Source: a virus. Taken from it: a DNA stretch of 36,537 bases. Each line of letters opens with the position of its first letter. The stretch's first letter is position 1. A program made the position numbers and the translations under genes. The stretch is from positions 1 through 36,537 of IMG/VR virus record IMGVR_UViG_3300032291_002420; one strand, given 5' to 3'. Shown here piece by piece: positions 18,698 through 26,509 of the stretch. A model generated the notes under the pieces. That model had not been told where the DNA came from. It was given only the letters and a program-made list of their open reading frames with translations, and did not search any database.

Positions 18698-20101
18698 TTA
18701 AACCACACCCCTAATGCTCCGGCGCAAAGGCTTGTTCGGCAGCCACGCCGATCCCCGACCACCCACCAGCGCCGCCTGGCCCGCAAACGTCAGACACAAC
18801 GCATCAGCCAAGTCAGGCGAACGCATGCCCCGCTTCTTCAGCCCGTCCTTGCTCTCAACCACCACCTTGCCCGTCGACGTGAACGAATACCGCGGCGCCA
18901 CCAACTCATGCCGCAGCGTCTCGTCCTTCGGCAACTTCACCGACCGCGTCGCCAGCCAGTCCTTCACCGACAACCACAACTCGTCCCTCAACCGATGCGC
19001 ATTCGGGTTCATCGCCGACGACTCCGCCACGTTCACGTCCCGCACGTTGTAGCCCTGCTCCCGCAGCCGATCGGCCACGCCAGACCCTAACCCGATCGTG
19101 TCCACACAAATCTCCTCCGGCGCGTCCTTCTTCGCCTCGTTCACCACCGCGCCCACCGTCTGCATCAGATCCAAGCCACCCCAGGCCCGGATCTCCAACA
19201 CCACATTCCCCTTCCGCTTGCACAGCGCCGTCCTGTCCGTGCCAAACCGCGCCACGTCCAGCCCGTATACCATTGGCTCGTTGGCCCCGACCGTGATGTC
19301 GCGCTCCAGCGCCGAGTCCACCAGATCAGCCGGGATCAACGTGTCATCATCCGCCAGCGCAAACTCACCCAACACCCGAATCCGATACGCGTTCGACGTC
19401 TCGCCATACGTCGCCGCGATCTGACGCACGAAATCCGACGACACCAGCGGGTTGTTCGCGCACGACACGTGCATCCGAAACCAATCAACCGCCAAGTCGT
19501 GGTGCGTCTTGTAAAACAGCCCAGAGTTCCGCGTCGGGTTGCTGATCAAGATCGTGCAAGCACTGTGGCCCGACATCGAGCCCGCCGCAGCCTCAAACAC
19601 CGCCTCCGGCACCGCACTCGCCTCGTCCACCACCAGCAGCACGTTCTCGCTGTGCACGCCCGCCAAAGCTTCAGGCCGCTCGCTGCTGCTCGTCCTCACG
19701 GAAATGAAGCTGCTCTCCGGCGCCCCTTTGAGCGAAATCCTGTCGCTGAAGACCTCAAAACTCTCCCGCAACACAGGCGGCAACTTATTCACCCACGACT
19801 TCAACTCAGCGTACAGCGCGTCAAACAGCTGCGCCGCCGTGGGCGCCGTCACCACCGCCTTCTGCGGATACCGCGTGCAAGCATGCCAAATCAGCACCCA
19901 GCTGCACACCGTGCTCTTCCCCACCCCGTGCCCCGCTCGCACCGAGATCCGCCGCTCGCCCCGCGCGACGGCACGCATCAACTCCTCCTGCCACGGCAGC
20001 GGCTTCGCCCCCAGCACGTTTCGCACGAAACCCACCGGGTCCGCCCGATAGCGCGTAATAAACGAAACGAACGTGTCCTTGTCCGAAGCCGCATCGCTCA
20101 T
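18698..20101 (-). CDS. terL: Terminase large subunit (packaging ATPase-nuclease)
   Basis: This 467-residue motor cuts and pumps DNA into the capsid. The ATPase domain has Walker A at 56-64 (RAGHGVGKST) and Walker B at 154-162 (VLLVVDEAS) with Glu160 as the expected catalytic residue. The nuclease domain has YGLDVARFGTDRTALC with Asp282, EICVDTIGLG with Asp334, and SPDLADALCL with Asp430 and Asp433, giving the RNase H-type metal site. It begins in a four-base overlap with the small subunit gene (ATGA). The overall type resembles podoviral headful or cos terminases. The packaging mode cannot be told here. Confidence 0.95.
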   Translation of the reverse strand: MSDAASDKDTFVSFITRYRADPVGFVRNVLGAKPLPWQEELMRAVARGERRISVRAGHGVGKSTVCSWVLIWHACTRYPQKAVVTAPTAAQLFDALYAELKSWVNKLPPVLRESFEVFSDRISLKGAPESSFISVRTSSSERPEALAGVHSENVLLVVDEASAVPEAVFEAAAGSMSGHSACTILISNPTRNSGLFYKTHHDLAVDWFRMHVSCANNPLVSSDFVRQIAATYGETSNAYRIRVLGEFALADDDTLIPADLVDSALERDITVGANEPMVYGLDVARFGTDRTALCKRKGNVVLEIRAWGGLDLMQTVGAVVNEAKKDAPEEICVDTIGLGSGVADRLREQGYNVRDVNVAESSAMNPNAHRLRDELWLSVKDWLATRSVKLPKDETLRHELVAPRYSFTSTGKVVVESKDGLKKRGMRSPDLADALCLTFAGQAALVGGRGSAWLPNKPLRRSIRGVV

Positions 20102-20802
20102 TCCGTGACGTCCTTTTTATTTTTTGCCGGGCGGCCCCGGCGACGCGAAGGGGGTGGGGTGGGGGTGGGGGCAAGTACCTCCGGCGCAGCGTGCGTAGAC
20201 GGCGCGGGTGGCGCGCACGCGGGCGCCCCCGGCGGGGCGGCAGGGCCGGGGGGGTCTGGCCGATCGGTCGCCTGGCCGGCCCCCTCCTCCCCCGGCGCGG
20301 CCCCGGCCACCCCCTCGATCACTCGGTCGGACCCACCCAACCTTTCACCACCAAAGGTGGGAAGCGCAGGGATTTCAGTAGCTTGGCCCTCGATGTACCC
20401 GGAACCCTTACCCGCGAGCTCCTTCAGGGCCTCAAGGTGCAGCGTGTGCGTGTGCGTGACGGTCGCTTCGACCTGCGTCCGATCGCCGTAGATCTTCGGC
20501 AACAGCCTCGAGGCGGTCCATTTCTTCGCGTCGATCGCCACGCGAGCGACGTCCGCGGGGATCTCGCCCCTGGTCGCCATCTCCGCGAGCTCGTCGATCC
20601 GTTCGGCGTGGATGATCGCCCGCGCCTGTATCGCACGCGTGTAGATGAGGAGGAACTCCTCATCGCGGTTCAACCACGTCCAGATCGACTTCGCGTCTGG
20701 CATGCCTTCTTCTTCGCCGATCGACTTGATCGACCGGCCTTGAGCCACCAGGAGGCAGATCTGCTCAATGAGTTCGGGCGTCTTGATTGTGGGCCTAGCC
20801 AT
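20098..20802 (-). CDS. terS: Terminase small subunit with AT-hook-like tail
   Basis: This is a 234-residue protein. The N-terminus (LIEQICLLVAQGRSIKSIGEEEGMPDAKSIWTWL) is a helix-turn-helix that would bind the packaging site, followed by helices typical of ring-forming TerS (RAIQARAIIHAERIDELAE, and AKKWTASRLLPKIYGDR). Residues about 165-220 are Pro/Ala-rich, and the C-terminus is RRRGRPAKNKK, a close match to an AT-hook (R-G-R-P). TerS proteins end in a TerL-binding tail, so an extra DNA-binding hook is notable. The start overlaps the upstream gene by 8 bases, and its end overlaps TerL. Confidence 0.85.
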   Translation of the reverse strand: MARPTIKTPELIEQICLLVAQGRSIKSIGEEEGMPDAKSIWTWLNRDEEFLLIYTRAIQARAIIHAERIDELAEMATRGEIPADVARVAIDAKKWTASRLLPKIYGDRTQVEATVTHTHTLHLEALKELAGKGSGYIEGQATEIPALPTFGGERLGGSDRVIEGVAGAAPGEEGAGQATDRPDPPGPAAPPGAPACAPPAPSTHAAPEVLAPTPTPPPSRRRGRPAKNKKDVTE

Positions 20803-21031
20803 TACCGCGCCCCTCCTCCTTCCCCTTCGCCTCTCTGTACTCCTGCAGGCTGACGACTGGCTGCTGGCGGAGCCTGGCGAGCCTGTCGTCGTGGAGTGCT
20901 TGGACGATCGTGTCGAGGCGGTTGCGTGTCCATCGTGTCAGGTCTTCGGGTTGGGGCGCGGCCTGGGTCAGGATGTCGTCCCAGATGGCTGCGCAGTGGG
21001 CGTCGAGGTCGTCAGAAGGGGATTTCGTCAT
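20795..21031 (-). CDS. Small hypothetical protein before terminase
   Basis: This 78-residue, charged, helical protein (SDDLDAHCAAIWDDILTQ; RWTRNRLDTIVQALHD; ARLRQQPVVSLQEYREAKG) has its ATG at 21031, and its first 20 bases overlap the preceding gene. No family is recognised. Its place just before the terminase small subunit suggests it belongs to the packaging transcript. Confidence 0.6.
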   Translation of the reverse strand: MTKSPSDDLDAHCAAIWDDILTQAAPQPEDLTRWTRNRLDTIVQALHDDRLARLRQQPVVSLQEYREAKGKEEGRGNG

Positions 21032-21578
21032 CGGGGACGGTGACCTTCTGTGCGGGCTGTACGGTGGCGCCTGGGAAGGCGGCCTTGGCGGCTTCGGCGA
21101 ATGCGGCTGGCTGCCACTGGGACCAGGCCAGCAGGAGTTCGGGGAGCGTGACGACGGTTTCGGGGTGGTCGGAGTGTCGTGCCACGGCGTCGGCGTCTCT
21201 GGGGTTCAGGGCCACCGTATACGGCTTTCCGTGCCAGGTCATCGACCATGTGTTCGGCGGCATGGGTGTGTGACCGGCTTCGGTGGCGGCTTGGTCGAGG
21301 GCTTGCCAGCCTCGGATCATGACCTGGGCGCGATGTGTGATGGCCTCGAGGTCGTTGTCGTGGATGGCGGCGTCGAGTTTGTCGGCGGCCTGTCCGAAGC
21401 GGGCGGCGAGTTCTGGGGTGACGAGGCGCGGCAGTCGGTCGCAGCCCCACTTCGCTTCCAGCGCGTGTGCGACCTGGTCGAGGGGTGCGATAGCTGCGGC
21501 GAGTGCCTTCCCGTGCGCGATGCTTCCCATCCGCAGCAGCGCCTGATCAGCGGTCGAGAGTCGCTTCATCTTGCTCAT
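21012..21578 (-). CDS. Hypothetical protein with SSB-type acidic C-terminal tip
   Basis: This 188-residue protein has no recognised family. It is mainly helical, with MKRLSTADQALLRMGSIAHGKA near the start and a beta stretch in the middle (MTWHGKPYTVALNPRDADAV). It ends in PDDEIPF, which closely matches the tail of bacterial SSB (DDDIPF) that recruits replication enzymes. There is no obvious OB fold, so it may borrow host SSB partners or mimic SSB. The gene begins about 20 bases downstream of the GGGACA repeat cluster, next to the presumed replication origin, which fits a replication role. A Met two codons into the frame is an alternative start. Confidence 0.6.
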   Translation of the reverse strand: MSKMKRLSTADQALLRMGSIAHGKALAAAIAPLDQVAHALEAKWGCDRLPRLVTPELAARFGQAADKLDAAIHDNDLEAITHRAQVMIRGWQALDQAATEAGHTPMPPNTWSMTWHGKPYTVALNPRDADAVARHSDHPETVVTLPELLLAWSQWQPAAFAEAAKAAFPGATVQPAQKVTVPDDEIPF

Positions 21579-21595: not shown

Positions 21596-21720
21596 TGTCC
21601 CGCTCTCAGCGGGACATCGGGACACCCCTAAAGGGGTGTGTCCCGTGTCCCGGCAAAGAGGCTTGCGGCTATGTCCCGTTGTCCCGTCTATGTCCCGGTG
21701 GATGTCCCGGCAAATGTCCC
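21596..21720. repeat. GGGACA/TGTCCC repeat cluster, candidate replication origin
   Basis: Ten copies of the hexamer TGTCCC (or its complement GGGACA) lie in 125 bp. Eight read TGTCCC on the plus strand (21596, 21639, 21646, 21672, 21680, 21691, 21703 and 21715). Two are inverted (21611, 21619). The spacings 8, 11, 12, 12 at the right end are close to regular. Two of the copies form a perfect inverted repeat: arms of 9 bases, TGTCCCGCT and AGCGGGACA, with a 3-base loop (21596-21616). Next to it is a 7-bp hairpin, ACACCCC-TAAA-GGGGTGT (21622-21639). Another TGTCCC lies at 22023. The right end lies in the 3' codons of the 21688 gene (encoding GTFAGTSTGT). Iteron-like spacing beside a primase-helicase gene suggests an origin, though an operator array is also possible. 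Confidence 0.65.
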
Positions 21721-21987
21721 GGCGTCCTGGCGCGCCTCTGTCCTCGTTGGCGGCACTTTGACGAGTGCGAACTCGAGGTGGTCCACCTCCTGGACGACCC
21801 CGCTCTCGATCAGGTAGTCGACCGATCGCCGGAAGGACTTCTTCTTGTTCTCCCCGCAGGCCGGCGTCATGGCGTAGAAGGCGCAGCGCCACCGCTCCTC
21901 CGTGACGGTTTGGGCGCCGTCCTCTGATGCGACGCGGATTGCCTTCAGCGCCTCGGCGCGGCGCGGGGTCATGTGGATCTTCTGCAT
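21688..21987 (-). CDS. Hypothetical protein with probable winged-helix fold
   Basis: This is a 99-residue protein. The central part (RRAEALKAIRVASEDG, then SFRRSVDYLIESGVVQEVDHLEFALV) suggests a small winged-helix DNA-binding domain. The ATG at 21987 has a strong AGGAGG site 7 bases upstream. The C-terminal codons (AGTFAGTSTGT) run over four of the GGGACA repeats, so they may be an accident of the overlap with the array. Its place next to the array and the primase-helicase suggests a possible origin-binding role, which is only an inference. Confidence 0.55.
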   Translation of the reverse strand: MQKIHMTPRRAEALKAIRVASEDGAQTVTEERWRCAFYAMTPACGENKKKSFRRSVDYLIESGVVQEVDHLEFALVKVPPTRTEARQDAGTFAGTSTGT

Positions 21988-22043
21988 GGAGGCCTCCTGT
22001 GCCTACGGTTGCTTGATCCTTTTGTCCCGTTTTGTCGCGCATG

Positions 22044-24221
22044 TCACTCTTTTCCTTGTGCCACGATCCACCAGGTGGATCCGTGGTGCGCGGCGCGGTT
22101 CATCTCCTTCAGCGTCTTCTTGACCCTCTGGAATGCCTTCTTCTTGGCCTCCTGGTCGGCGGTCGTCTCCTGGTAGAAGTAGGTCCGCCAGGTTTCTTCG
22201 CCCACGCATCGGACGTTGCTGGGGATGTGGTTTGAGGTCACCTGCTCCCCGTGGTTTTCGATTGCCCTGCGGAGCGCGGTCAGCGCATCGGCGGGGTAGC
22301 CCGTCAGCTTGGTGATCTTGGGCGCGATGACCACCGGCCCGTTCAGGGGCTCGACGGCCAGGGACGTGGCGTCTGGGTCGATGTCGGACAGCGGGACGGA
22401 GATCATGCGGTAGCCGATCTCGATGCCGTCCTCGCCGTCCTTCTGCTTCGTGATCTTGAGGCGCCCCAGGCGTTCGGGGCTGTCGTCGTCGGAGATCTTG
22501 GTCACCTCGAGCTCGGCGTCGACGGCGCCCAGGAGGCTGGAGTGGCCGCGCTGGCCTCGGGCTTCGTCCTTGCCGGCGTGGTGGACGGGCATGACGAGGC
22601 AGTCGAGGGTTTCGGTGAGGTATCCGATGATGGCGATGAAGGCGCCCATGTCTTCGCTGCTGTTCTCGTTGCCGCCCGAGAAGGCGCGGGCGAGCGTGTC
22701 GACCACCAGCATGCGGGGCTTGAGGTTCTTGGCCTTGATCGCTTCGACCAGGGCTTCGGCGTCTTCCATGGTCGATCGGAGGTTCAACTGGCCCCGCAGG
22801 AAGGCGATAGGCGTGTCGGGCGGCAGGTCGTGGTGCTTGCGCAGCGCGTCCCAGCGGCGCTTGAGGCCCGCCCCGCCCTCGCCTGCGACGTAGACGACGT
22901 CGCCCTGGATCGTAGTGCGGTCGAAGGCTGGCTGTCCTGTGGCGATCATGCCGGCCACGTAGAGGGCCACGAAGGACTTGTAGCTGCCGGGCTTGCCGTA
23001 GAGGGCGGCGAAGCCCTTGGCGGGCAGTAGTTCGTGGATCAGCCAGGTGACGGGCTCGTCGCGCAGTTCCTCGGCCATGACGAGGCGGATGCGCGGCTGT
23101 GGGCCTTGCTGGGCTTGTGGGGCCTCCCGGACGTCATCGGGCATGGAGGCGATTGGCGCGGCCTGGGCCTTGGCCTGGATCCGCTCCGCGATCGTCGGCT
23201 CCGGCGGCATGAGGGCGCGGGCTGCGGCCTTGCGGTCGCCACCGTGCTGGAAGGTGGCGTAGAGGTCGAACGGGTCGGTGACGTGGCCCGACAGCGGGTC
23301 TTCGATGCCGTGGTGGGAGTAGGCGCACCAGTGGCCTCGGGTGCCCTTGAAGACGACGACGCCGGCGGTGCCGGTCGTGGATCCTGGCCGCATGTAACGG
23401 TAGGCCTCGCCGTTCGGGCCATGGAGGTCGCGGTACATGAAGCGGTAGCCGTTGGCCTCGAGGGTCTGGCGGACGTACTCAAGGCCGTGGCCGTCGTTGA
23501 ATGCGTCGATAACGCTGGGCGCCTCTGGGAGCGCCTTGGGCGGCGGCGGGCTGCTGGTGATGGCCTGTTCGGCCTTGCGCTGCTGCTGGCGCGTCTGGAG
23601 CCACTGGACGGCCTTCTGCACGTCCATGGGCTGTCCGTCGTGGCGGTGGGAGCGGAAGGCGGAGACGGCCTCCTGCGTGCCGACGCGGGGCAGATACCAG
23701 GGCTGGGACCAGCGGCGGTTCTCTGGGACGTCCGTGATGTAGACGCCGCGGGCGTGGAGCTGCTCGATGAGGTAGGTGACGACGGCGTCGAGCTCGGCGG
23801 GGCTGGCCATGCGGGCGGGCACCAGGATGCGGTACTTCCAGGTATCGGTCGTCGGGTCGTAGGAGTGCGTCGTGTGCGCGAAGAAGCTGACACCGATGTC
23901 TTCCATGGCGGCGATCGCTTCGGGCAGCGGCGGCGCGCCTGTGTGGATCTCGCCTGTCTCTGGGTCGAAGCGGGAGTCGCCGTCGATGACGGCGATATCG
24001 GCGGCGAGGAGGTGTTCGTCGGCGCGCTTGAGTTCCGCCAGGTCGCCGCCGCGGACGTAGTAGCTGCCGTCCTTCGGCCCGACCTTGGGCGTCGACAGGC
24101 GCTGGCAGAAGTATGCCCAAGTGATTTCCTTGGCCGAGAGGGTGACATCTGTGCGTCCGTTGGCGGCCAGGGCGATCTTTAGCCTAGCGGTGTCGTGCGT
24201 CGTTGTTATATCTTGGGACAT
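22044..24221 (-). CDS. Primase-helicase replication protein
   Basis: This is a 725-residue protein. Residues about 20-180 look like an archaeo-eukaryotic primase-type domain: IAVIDGDSRF (Asp80 and Asp82) followed by FFAHTTHSYDPTT and YRILVPARM. The middle holds a Pro-rich linker and a Cys/His-containing part (GTRGHWCAYSHHG). Residues about 385-600 are a RepA/AAA_25-type helicase with Walker A at 408-417 (LYGKPGSYKSF), Walker B at 504-508 (MLVVD) and VMPVHHAGKDEARGQRGHSS as the sensor region. I place the start at the ATG at 24221. The longer frame to 24293 crosses the 24258-24293 hairpin and has no ribosome site there. A primase-helicase is the only replicative enzyme visible, so host polymerase is probably used. 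Confidence 0.85.
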   Translation of the reverse strand: MSQDITTTHDTARLKIALAANGRTDVTLSAKEITWAYFCQRLSTPKVGPKDGSYYVRGGDLAELKRADEHLLAADIAVIDGDSRFDPETGEIHTGAPPLPEAIAAMEDIGVSFFAHTTHSYDPTTDTWKYRILVPARMASPAELDAVVTYLIEQLHARGVYITDVPENRRWSQPWYLPRVGTQEAVSAFRSHRHDGQPMDVQKAVQWLQTRQQQRKAEQAITSSPPPPKALPEAPSVIDAFNDGHGLEYVRQTLEANGYRFMYRDLHGPNGEAYRYMRPGSTTGTAGVVVFKGTRGHWCAYSHHGIEDPLSGHVTDPFDLYATFQHGGDRKAAARALMPPEPTIAERIQAKAQAAPIASMPDDVREAPQAQQGPQPRIRLVMAEELRDEPVTWLIHELLPAKGFAALYGKPGSYKSFVALYVAGMIATGQPAFDRTTIQGDVVYVAGEGGAGLKRRWDALRKHHDLPPDTPIAFLRGQLNLRSTMEDAEALVEAIKAKNLKPRMLVVDTLARAFSGGNENSSEDMGAFIAIIGYLTETLDCLVMPVHHAGKDEARGQRGHSSLLGAVDAELEVTKISDDDSPERLGRLKITKQKDGEDGIEIGYRMISVPLSDIDPDATSLAVEPLNGPVVIAPKITKLTGYPADALTALRRAIENHGEQVTSNHIPSNVRCVGEETWRTYFYQETTADQEAKKKAFQRVKKTLKEMNRAAHHGSTWWIVAQGKE

Positions 24222-24257
24222 CCGCGGATGGTTCCTGCGTTCGCGGGGGACTCGATG

Positions 24258-24293
24258 ATGCGGCGCTGGTGATCCTGCACACCAGCGCCGCAT
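24258..24293. terminator. Perfect 14-bp inverted repeat between SSB-like and primase-helicase genes
   Basis: Arms at 24258-24271 (ATGCGGCGCTGGTG) and 24280-24293 are exact complements with an 8-base loop. On the plus strand the hairpin is followed by TTCGTTTT, a terminator-like tail, so it could stop antisense transcription. On the minus strand, the coding direction, no T run follows, and it would lie in the untranslated leader of the primase-helicase gene and might act as an RNA stop, processing site or brake on read-through. Function is inferred. Confidence 0.5.
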
Positions 24294-24971: not shown

Positions 24972-25445
24972 TTAGCGGGTGGCCTTCCACCACGCCATGA
25001 GGGCCGCGTCTGCGCGCCCGTCCCACTTCTTGAGTGCGAACAGGTGCGCGTATGCGGGGAAGAGCTCGGCGGCGCGCTGCCGTGCGCCGTCCTTGCCGTC
25101 GCGCGCGTTCACAGCCTTCTGCCAGGCTTGCGGCGTGACGTACTCGATCGGGATGTGCAGCGCGGCGACGATGCCCTCGACCATGCCGACGCCGCGGCCA
25201 AACTGGTACGCGAAGCTCGGCGCTTCGCCTGGGCGCGCGCCGACCTTCTCGACGACGGCCACGCCCGGCTTCCGCGCGTTGATGAGGGGCGCGAGCATCT
25301 GCGGGCTGATCTCGTTCTTCTTCTTGCCGCCGCGCAGCACCTCGACGGTGGGCATGTCGATGATCTCGAGCGTGCCGGCGGTCGGGCAGAAGAAGGCGAG
25401 CGCGCCTGTCGCACCTGGGTCGACGGCGAGGATCACGGGCCTCAT
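24972..25445 (-). CDS. RuvC-like Holliday junction resolvase
   Basis: This 157-residue enzyme cuts four-way junctions during replication and packaging. It opens with ILAVDPGATGALAFF (Asp9), has VAVVEKVGARPGE (Glu66), then YQFGRGVGMVEGIVAALHIPIEYVTPQAWQK, the typical RuvC helix and strand, and ends with WDGRADAALMAWW with Asp146. The four-base overlap (ATGA) with the preceding methyltransferase fixes the start at 25445. Phage RuvC homologues of this size lack the usual host partner motifs. Confidence 0.85.
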   Translation of the reverse strand: MRPVILAVDPGATGALAFFCPTAGTLEIIDMPTVEVLRGGKKKNEISPQMLAPLINARKPGVAVVEKVGARPGEAPSFAYQFGRGVGMVEGIVAALHIPIEYVTPQAWQKAVNARDGKDGARQRAAELFPAYAHLFALKKWDGRADAALMAWWKATR

Positions 25446-26509
25446 CGGGCGGCCTCCTTGTTGATGCGCTCTCCGATCCACCGCATGACGGGGACGGCCA
25501 TGGAGTTGCCCAGCGCCTTGTATCGCGGCCCGTCTGCGGTCTTGTCGCTGATGCGGGTGTATTCGTCGGGGAAGCCTTGGAGGCGCTCGCATTCGCGCGG
25601 CGTGAGGCGGCGCACGGCGCTGGTGGCGGCTGCAACTGCCGCGACCTGGGCGATGAACGTCTCCGTGTCGAAGTCCTGGCGCCCGCTGGCCGTGCCGCAG
25701 GCGTTCAGCGCGGCAGCCACGTCGATGGGTCCGCTGGTGTTGTTGCCACCAAAGGCCACGGCAACGACGGGATCCTGGCCGCGACTTTCCCCGGTGCGAT
25801 CTACGCCCCGGCCACTTGCCGTAAGGCTTGGTGCAGTTGGGTGGGCAGTTCCTTCCCGCGCTTCTCGGCGCGGCGGAGAATGCCTGCGCATGCCCTCGCG
25901 CTCAAAAAGAACCTCGGCGGGATGGATGTCGTCTCGAGCACTTGCGACAACGAACACACGACGGCGTCGTTGGGCCACTCCGAAATATTGAGCGTCGAGA
26001 ACCCGCCAGGCGCAGCGTCTTTCGGGTCCAACAACCAGACCCGCGCTGGTCCATCTCCCTCTTGGCGGAAGGAGGGGTTCGTCGCTTCCAGCCAATGCCC
26101 CGAGAAAGCAGCCGAAGGCGTTGTCTTTGACGTTGAGCACGCCTGGGACGTTCTCCCAGAGGACGATGCCGGGCTTGGCTCCCCTAGCACGTCGAAGATG
26201 GTCAATTGCATCAGCCAGCCTCACGAACTCAAGGGAAAGGTTGCCACGATCGTCGGCCAGTGAAAGCCGCTTGCCCGCGACGGAGAACGCCTGACACGGC
26301 GTGCCGCCGACGAGGACGTCGGCGTCTGCGATCCACTCCTCATCTCGCAGCTTGGTGAAGTCGCCGTGCAGCGGCACGGACGGGTAGTGGTGCGCAAGGA
26401 CCGCGCGCGGAAACTTCTCGATCTCGCTGAATGCGAGCGGGGTCCAGCCCATGTGGTGCCACGCCACGGTGGCCGCTTCGATCCCGCTGCACACGGAGAG
26501 GTAGCGCAT
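25442..26509 (-). CDS. C5-cytosine DNA methyltransferase
   Basis: This 355-residue enzyme probably protects phage DNA from host restriction. Motif I: LSVCSGIEAATVAWHH. Motif IV: VGGTPCQAFSVAGKR with catalytic Cys72. Motif VI: VLWENVPG at about 118-123. Motif VIII: QRRRRVFVVA. Motifs IX and X: RRLTPRECERLQGFPDEYT and YKALGNSMAVPVMRWIG. The target-recognition region (about 205-290) is the least conserved and overlaps the C-terminal part of the nested frame 25801-26211. The start overlaps the preceding HTH gene stop (TAATG) and the end overlaps the resolvase start. All key motifs are present, so it looks active. The recognition site cannot be deduced. Confidence 0.95.
   Translation of the reverse strand: MRYLSVCSGIEAATVAWHHMGWTPLAFSEIEKFPRAVLAHHYPSVPLHGDFTKLRDEEWIADADVLVGGTPCQAFSVAGKRLSLADDRGNLSLEFVRLADAIDHLRRARGAKPGIVLWENVPGVLNVKDNAFGCFLGALAGSDEPLLPPRGRWTSAGLVVGPERRCAWRVLDAQYFGVAQRRRRVFVVASARDDIHPAEVLFEREGMRRHSPPRREAREGTAHPTAPSLTASGRGVDRTGESRGQDPVVAVAFGGNNTSGPIDVAAALNACGTASGRQDFDTETFIAQVAAVAAATSAVRRLTPRECERLQGFPDEYTRISDKTADGPRYKALGNSMAVPVMRWIGERINKEAAR
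25801..26211 (-). CDS. Nested protein frame inside the C5-methyltransferase gene
   Basis: This 136-residue open frame lies wholly within the methyltransferase gene, offset by one base. Its product reads like a genuine protein: MQLTIFDVLGEPSPASSSG at the start, then VWLLDPKDAAPGGFSTL, SEWPNDAVVCSLSQVLE and FFLSARACAGILRRAEKRGKELP. I recognise that last stretch from phage proteins found as separate genes near methyltransferases (memory, not a search). A GAGG lies 7 bases before its ATG. It covers methyltransferase residues 100-236, including ENVPG and the QRRRRVF motif, so both frames are constrained. The nested frame is therefore a credible overprinted gene, although expression is unproven. 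The function of its homologues is unknown to me. Confidence 0.6.
   Translation of the reverse strand: MQLTIFDVLGEPSPASSSGRTSQACSTSKTTPSAAFSGHWLEATNPSFRQEGDGPARVWLLDPKDAAPGGFSTLNISEWPNDAVVCSLSQVLETTSIPPRFFLSARACAGILRRAEKRGKELPTQLHQALRQVAGA

Follow-up and report, generated by a model that had tools for sequence, protein, structure and literature searches.

A candidate phage replication origin behind a RepA-type helicase-primase gene, with repeats that co-vary with a predicted winged-helix domain

Repeat array and gene order

The window, that is, the whole stretch of DNA analyzed, comprises 36537 bases of an IMG/VR virus record. Read along the minus strand, a helicase-primase gene (24293-22044) is followed by iteron copy 1, a 99-aa ORF (21987-21688), iterons 2-11, a 188-aa gene (21578-21012) and the terminase small subunit gene (20802-20098). 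A C5 cytosine methylase gene (25442-26509) lies upstream of this replication module. The features of the locus are:

22044..24293, minus strand: proposed initiator-helicase-primase, 749 aa, with an N-terminal primase-like half, an RSF1010-RepA-type AAA_25 core (residues 411-577) and a predicted C-terminal winged helix (Pfam, PHROG, profile, Foldseek)
22047..22313, minus strand: C-terminal winged-helix domain (residues ~661-749), proposed iteron reader (AlphaFold2, VIA-align, word co-variation)
22023..22028, minus strand: iteron copy 1, split from the other copies by insertion of the 99-aa gene (in the relative L003, an uninterrupted run of 11 copies here)
22004..22053, no strand: local AT-rich minimum around copy 1 (GC 0.46, 0.7th percentile of the window)
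21688..21987, minus strand: 99-aa free-standing winged-helix relative, inserted between iterons 1 and 2 (hhalign, BLASTP, HMM)
21596..21720, no strand: main iteron array, ten copies of (C)GGGACA (count and shuffles)
21622..21639, no strand: central hairpin with 8-bp arms, ACACCCCT-AA-AGGGGTGT (hairpins of this type kept in relatives)
21596..21616, plus-strand reading: second hairpin, an inverted iteron pair with 9-bp arms, TGTCCCGCT-CTC-AGCGGGACA
21012..21578, minus strand: conserved partner gene encoding 188 aa that end in the SSB-like tail DDEIPF (family relative in 75 of the 119 helicase loci examined)

Exactly ten copies of GGGACA lie within 21596-21720, two on the plus and eight on the minus strand, in agreement with a preliminary description of this DNA that had reported ten hexamers in 125 bp and proposed a comparison with shuffled windows. 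Across 200 dinucleotide shuffles of the window, no 125-bp stretch held more than three copies, and the runner-up hexamer in the real window reached six per 125 bp (the overlapping CGGGAC left aside). The clustering is real and far beyond chance. Another copy, at 22023-22028 on the minus strand, lies just past the helicase stop. Start-to-start spacings (15, 8, 20, 7, 26, 8, 11, 12 and 12) range from 7 to 26 with runs of 8-12; several match the 8 to 12 originally described, whereas 15, 20, 7 and 26 fall outside. Iterons are several short direct repeats, frequently spaced about one helical turn apart, and the window has 10-11 such copies, with spacings in L003 mostly of 8-12.

The perfect inverted repeat with 9-bp arms noted earlier is exact at 21596-21616, and the hairpin described alongside it is present at 21622-21639, with arms of 8 rather than 7 bp. 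No T-run, the sign of a terminator, was found behind the hairpins of the window, and a terminator reading of them was rejected on this ground. The array had been placed between two genes. A gene with an SSB-like tail does lie downstream, its product ending in DDEIPF as had been recognized, but at the other end the array runs into the 21688-21987 ORF, over its last 11 codons, which contain three iterons. The 188-aa gene has its ribosome-binding site and start codon directly after the array, and its product is 100% identical in L003.

Helicase-primase and winged-helix domains

The helicase-primase matches Pfam AAA_25 in its core (E 1.2e-38) and a PHROG family of DNA polymerase/primase. RSF1010 RepA (1g8y/1nlf) is the sole PDB relative of the core by profile (E 1.4e-7) and occupies ranks 1-4 in Foldseek (E 5.5e-11), the core being a RecA-fold ATPase of the RSF1010 RepA type. 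Among relatives, the primase half switches between three kinds: the unassigned type of the window, Prim-Pol (L026) and Toprim-like (L024 and L027, with weak Pfam matches). Because the primase half changes kind without loss of the array, the array is independent of primase type.

The C-terminal domain of the helicase is a predicted winged helix. AlphaFold2 modeled residues 667-743 as a helix-strand-helix-helix-beta hairpin arrangement (pLDDT ~80-90), and the isolated domain gave the same arrangement (pLDDT 80.5). VIA-align scores were Z 8.5 to H1/H5 globular domains and Z 7-8 to the winged helices of ORC, MCM and CRP, values that speak for the fold but not for kinship or function. Sequence searches of Pfam and PDB with this domain returned no meaningful match, the fold assignment coming from AlphaFold2.

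The 99-aa ORF product is related to this same domain (hhalign E 2.6e-7; BLASTP 39% identity to the helicase of the window; HMM 22.3 bits versus at most 6.5 for 300 shuffles), in keeping with its earlier label as a winged-helix-type gene. Its gene is missing in the closest relatives, L003, L082 and L083; no such gene was found in viral contigs, nor was a further clear free-standing copy found among the loci examined. The 99-aa protein was rejected as the main binder of the array because these closest relatives share its array and lack the gene. Of the two binders first put forward, the 21688 product is thus probably not the main one, and the primase-helicase, by way of its C-terminal domain, is the better candidate. 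Most likely the 99-aa protein is either an origin modulator (a copy-number inhibitor or cooperating binder) or the leftover of a past cassette exchange.

Arrays in related phages

In L003, L082 and L083 an 11-copy array directly follows the helicase stop, and nearly all examined IMG/VR relatives of the helicase have an array in this position. About a dozen words are used by the different lineages, including GGGACA, CGTGACA, CAGCACA, CGGACA, GGTCAAAT, GGTCGAAT, ATCAGAA, GTAACA, GTTACA and GGGAACA. Layout and central hairpin are conserved across lineages while the word differs. Many arrays have a recurring short hairpin with C/G-rich arms and a T/A-rich center; in L042-L046, a hairpin whose 11-15 bp stem encloses a GGTATAT center is almost constant between arrays of different words. 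Arrays also lie behind the helicase gene in seven cultured phages (0 of 200 shuffles for each): Rhizobium phage 16-3 (GTGACA, 15 copies), CRP-831 (GTATAA, 10 copies), Vibrio phage 1.076.O (CGGACA, 6 copies), BcepGomr, RHph_N65, Idiomarinaceae phage 1N2-2 and Alteromonas phage PB15. By eye, the hairpin of 16-3 and BcepGomr looks terminator-like. Five relatives have no array behind the helicase gene (mycobacteriophages Obutu and Ariel, Gordonia phage Trine, Caulobacter phage RW and MW202711).

A DNA-only scan for triple CGGGACA placed an A1-type helicase within 300 bp at 39 of 119 loci among the matches listed, the array lying 3' to the helicase gene in 39 of 39, versus 0 of 120 arrays among the matches listed for a scrambled word; the pattern itself matched at least 120 times for either word, and gene context alone was used as evidence. 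This difference, along with co-variation of the word with the C-terminal domain, points to a cognate initiator encoded beside the array, as expected of iterons. Proteins of the conserved partner family are encoded behind the array, some with an SSB-like tail (DDEIPF, DDDIPF) and others without.

Since the 188-aa gene of the window is followed closely by the gene for the terminase small subunit (20098-20802), the repeats could serve that subunit as a packaging (pac/cos) site. However, in CRP-831, PB15 and RHph_N65 it is the helicase, not the terminase, that the array accompanies, and the array word tracks the helicase C-terminal domain. We regard a packaging function as scarcely credible. Cumulative GC skew, proposed earlier as a check on origin location, has a minimum in the window at 20843, ~750 bp from the array and significant against block permutation, but no such minimum near the array was reproduced in CRP-831, PB15 and RHph_N65 (n=3). 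GC skew gives no consistent support for an origin.

Co-variation of repeat word and C-terminal domain

What the word follows was assessed in 47 non-redundant arrays, compared as pairs, which are not independent, rather than as separate swaps counted on a tree. With the other regions controlled, word similarity correlated with C-terminal identity over all pairs (partial rank r 0.47, p=0.001) and more strongly among pairs with core identity >0.6 (0.65) and >0.8 (0.83, p=0.001 each). Partial correlations of the word with primase half, core and downstream protein were ~0 for core identity >0.6, and the downstream gene showed a weak association over all pairs (r 0.14, p=0.025). Where core identity exceeded 0.9, C-terminal identity was 0.93 in same-word pairs versus 0.44 in different-word pairs. 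A clear case is L069 (GTAACA) versus L080 (ATCAGAA), with identities of 0.99 in the N-terminal half, 0.97 in the core and 0.90 in the downstream protein, versus 0.20 in the C-terminal domain. At the DNA level, L005 and L021 are near-identical on either side of a stretch that extends from 340 bases ahead of the helicase stop to ~140 bases past it; this divergent stretch, at ~40-85% identity per 40-base block, comprises the C-terminal domain and the array. Both pairs represent cassette swaps, and phages of the L005/L021 kind differ mainly by this cassette. The hairpin apex is largely retained across such swaps.

Block recombination could produce part of the association because the C-terminal coding sequence adjoins the array. 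The downstream gene is equally close to the array, yet has no word association among close pairs, a comparison that controls only partially for adjacency. Contiguity of the two elements would also fit a stronger version, by which block recombination alone creates the co-variation and another, unlinked factor reads the array. Against this version, the swap starts near the domain boundary and stops around the array end, arrays of a dozen or so words are linked to the same helicase gene over highly diverged phages, and the C-terminal domain has a predicted winged-helix fold. We consider it improbable.

The same data bear on whether the repeats are an operator, by which a repressor such as the 99-aa winged-helix protein controls the downstream 188-aa gene. 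In the window the array does lie 5' of this gene, and the locus itself encodes a DNA-binding-type protein. Conversely, relatives with a matching array lack the 99-aa gene, the word does not track the downstream gene among close pairs, and no sigma-70-like promoter was found around the array, although the promoter type of the host may differ. An operator role is decidedly unlikely because the arrays of the cultured Rhizobium phages 16-3 and RHph_N65 sit between convergent gene ends. Autoregulating origin iterons are common among iteron plasmids, and here too the repeats could be a dual element, with origin iterons also controlling the helicase/partner operon and the initiator or the 99-aa protein acting as autorepressor. 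The translation start signals of the 188-aa gene immediately behind the array would suit such an element, but the data do not need it and the convergent arrangement in 16-3 and RHph_N65 speaks against it, leaving dual function a somewhat doubtful extension.

Proposed origin and mechanism

Linkage of array and helicase across phages, co-variation of word and domain, and convergent-gene placement in two cultured phages support, at the level of sequence comparison, the iteron-origin reading originally offered for this DNA. We think it highly likely that the array is the phage replication origin and that the winged helix of the neighboring initiator-helicase-primase binds its iterons. From this arrangement we infer DNA binding by the C-terminal domain, origin activity, a site of unwinding, and roles for the hairpin and the SSB-tailed protein. 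The C-terminal winged helix would bind the GGGACA iterons and gather the protein on the origin. DNA would then open nearby, perhaps at the AT-rich 22004-22053 and/or the hairpins; as an unwinding element, the AT-rich segment is a speculative candidate derived from the window alone. The RSF1010-RepA-like motor would load and unwind, and the N-terminal primase half would lay the first primers. Because the hairpin is constant while iteron words change, it may be a priming or structural signal. Related phages very probably keep this machine and swap the C-terminal domain with its matching repeats, by which the origin "address" would change quickly.

By analogy, the proposed mechanism is best read as resembling that of SaPI Rep or P4 alpha, but driven by a motor of the RSF1010 RepA type. 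The P4 alpha helicase belongs to SF3, whereas the window core is of the AAA_25/RepA type. P4 alpha combines primase, helicase and winged helix in one protein that binds origin repeats (PMC4234260), and initiator, helicase and primase are likewise proposed here to share one polypeptide; the primase of P4 is Toprim, whereas here a RecA-fold motor is joined to an exchangeable primase half. In SaPI Rep and SCCmec Cch2, the C-terminal domain recognizes iterons directly downstream of its own helicase gene, with helicases of the DUF927 (Cch/SaPIbov1) or D5/Primase_Cterm (Cch2/SaPI5) type (PMC7581432). The phage protein would similarly be a self-contained initiator helicase with iterons directly downstream of its gene, its reading domain proposed from co-variation alone; it differs in belonging to tailed phages and in joining primase domains to an AAA_25 core like that of RSF1010 RepA, and its Pfam and PDB sequence matches are to AAA_25/RepA only, not to SF3/D5- or DUF927-type helicases. 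RSF1010 shares the RepA-type helicase and an origin of iterons plus stem-loops but divides the origin tasks among three proteins, RepC, RepA and RepB' (PMC4234260), whereas a single polypeptide is proposed here for iteron reading, unwinding and priming; the free-standing winged helix of the window, which might parallel a separate RepC-like reader, is absent in the closest relatives. In the Vibrio satellite PLE, modular exchange affects the DNA-binding domain RepA_N together with the co-varying origin and leaves the remainder conserved (PMC8263062). Reader domain and origin would be exchanged as modules here too, with an N-terminal RepA_N reader in PLE and, in these phages, a C-terminal winged helix and many more words.

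Module swapping, already known for the PLE satellite (PMC8263062), would thus extend to phages themselves with about a dozen words. For many phages without an assigned origin, the rule would be to look right behind the stop of a RepA-type helicase-primase gene. Near-identical phages that differ mainly in a winged helix of ~90 residues and a repeat stretch of ~120 bp also provide a natural experiment on how initiator DNA specificity changes. More tentatively, tailed phages with RepA-type helicase-primases may possess an exchangeable origin-identity cassette of C-terminal winged helix and iterons, selected to change its word (to evade origin-directed nucleases, satellites or other phages of their kin, for example), some of them, this phage included, with a free-standing copy of the reader acting on the origin in trans. 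Our literature search, with subscription journals mostly outside its coverage, found nothing on GGGACA origins or on repeats of RepA-like phage helicases.

GGGACA arrays also occur inside DnaD/O-like initiator genes and beside other primase-helicases (L102, L104, L132 and others; L096, L103, L133, L164), and 18 of 78 scanned proteins matched a DnaD-like loader family. The word GGGACA is thus common to apparently unrelated initiators.
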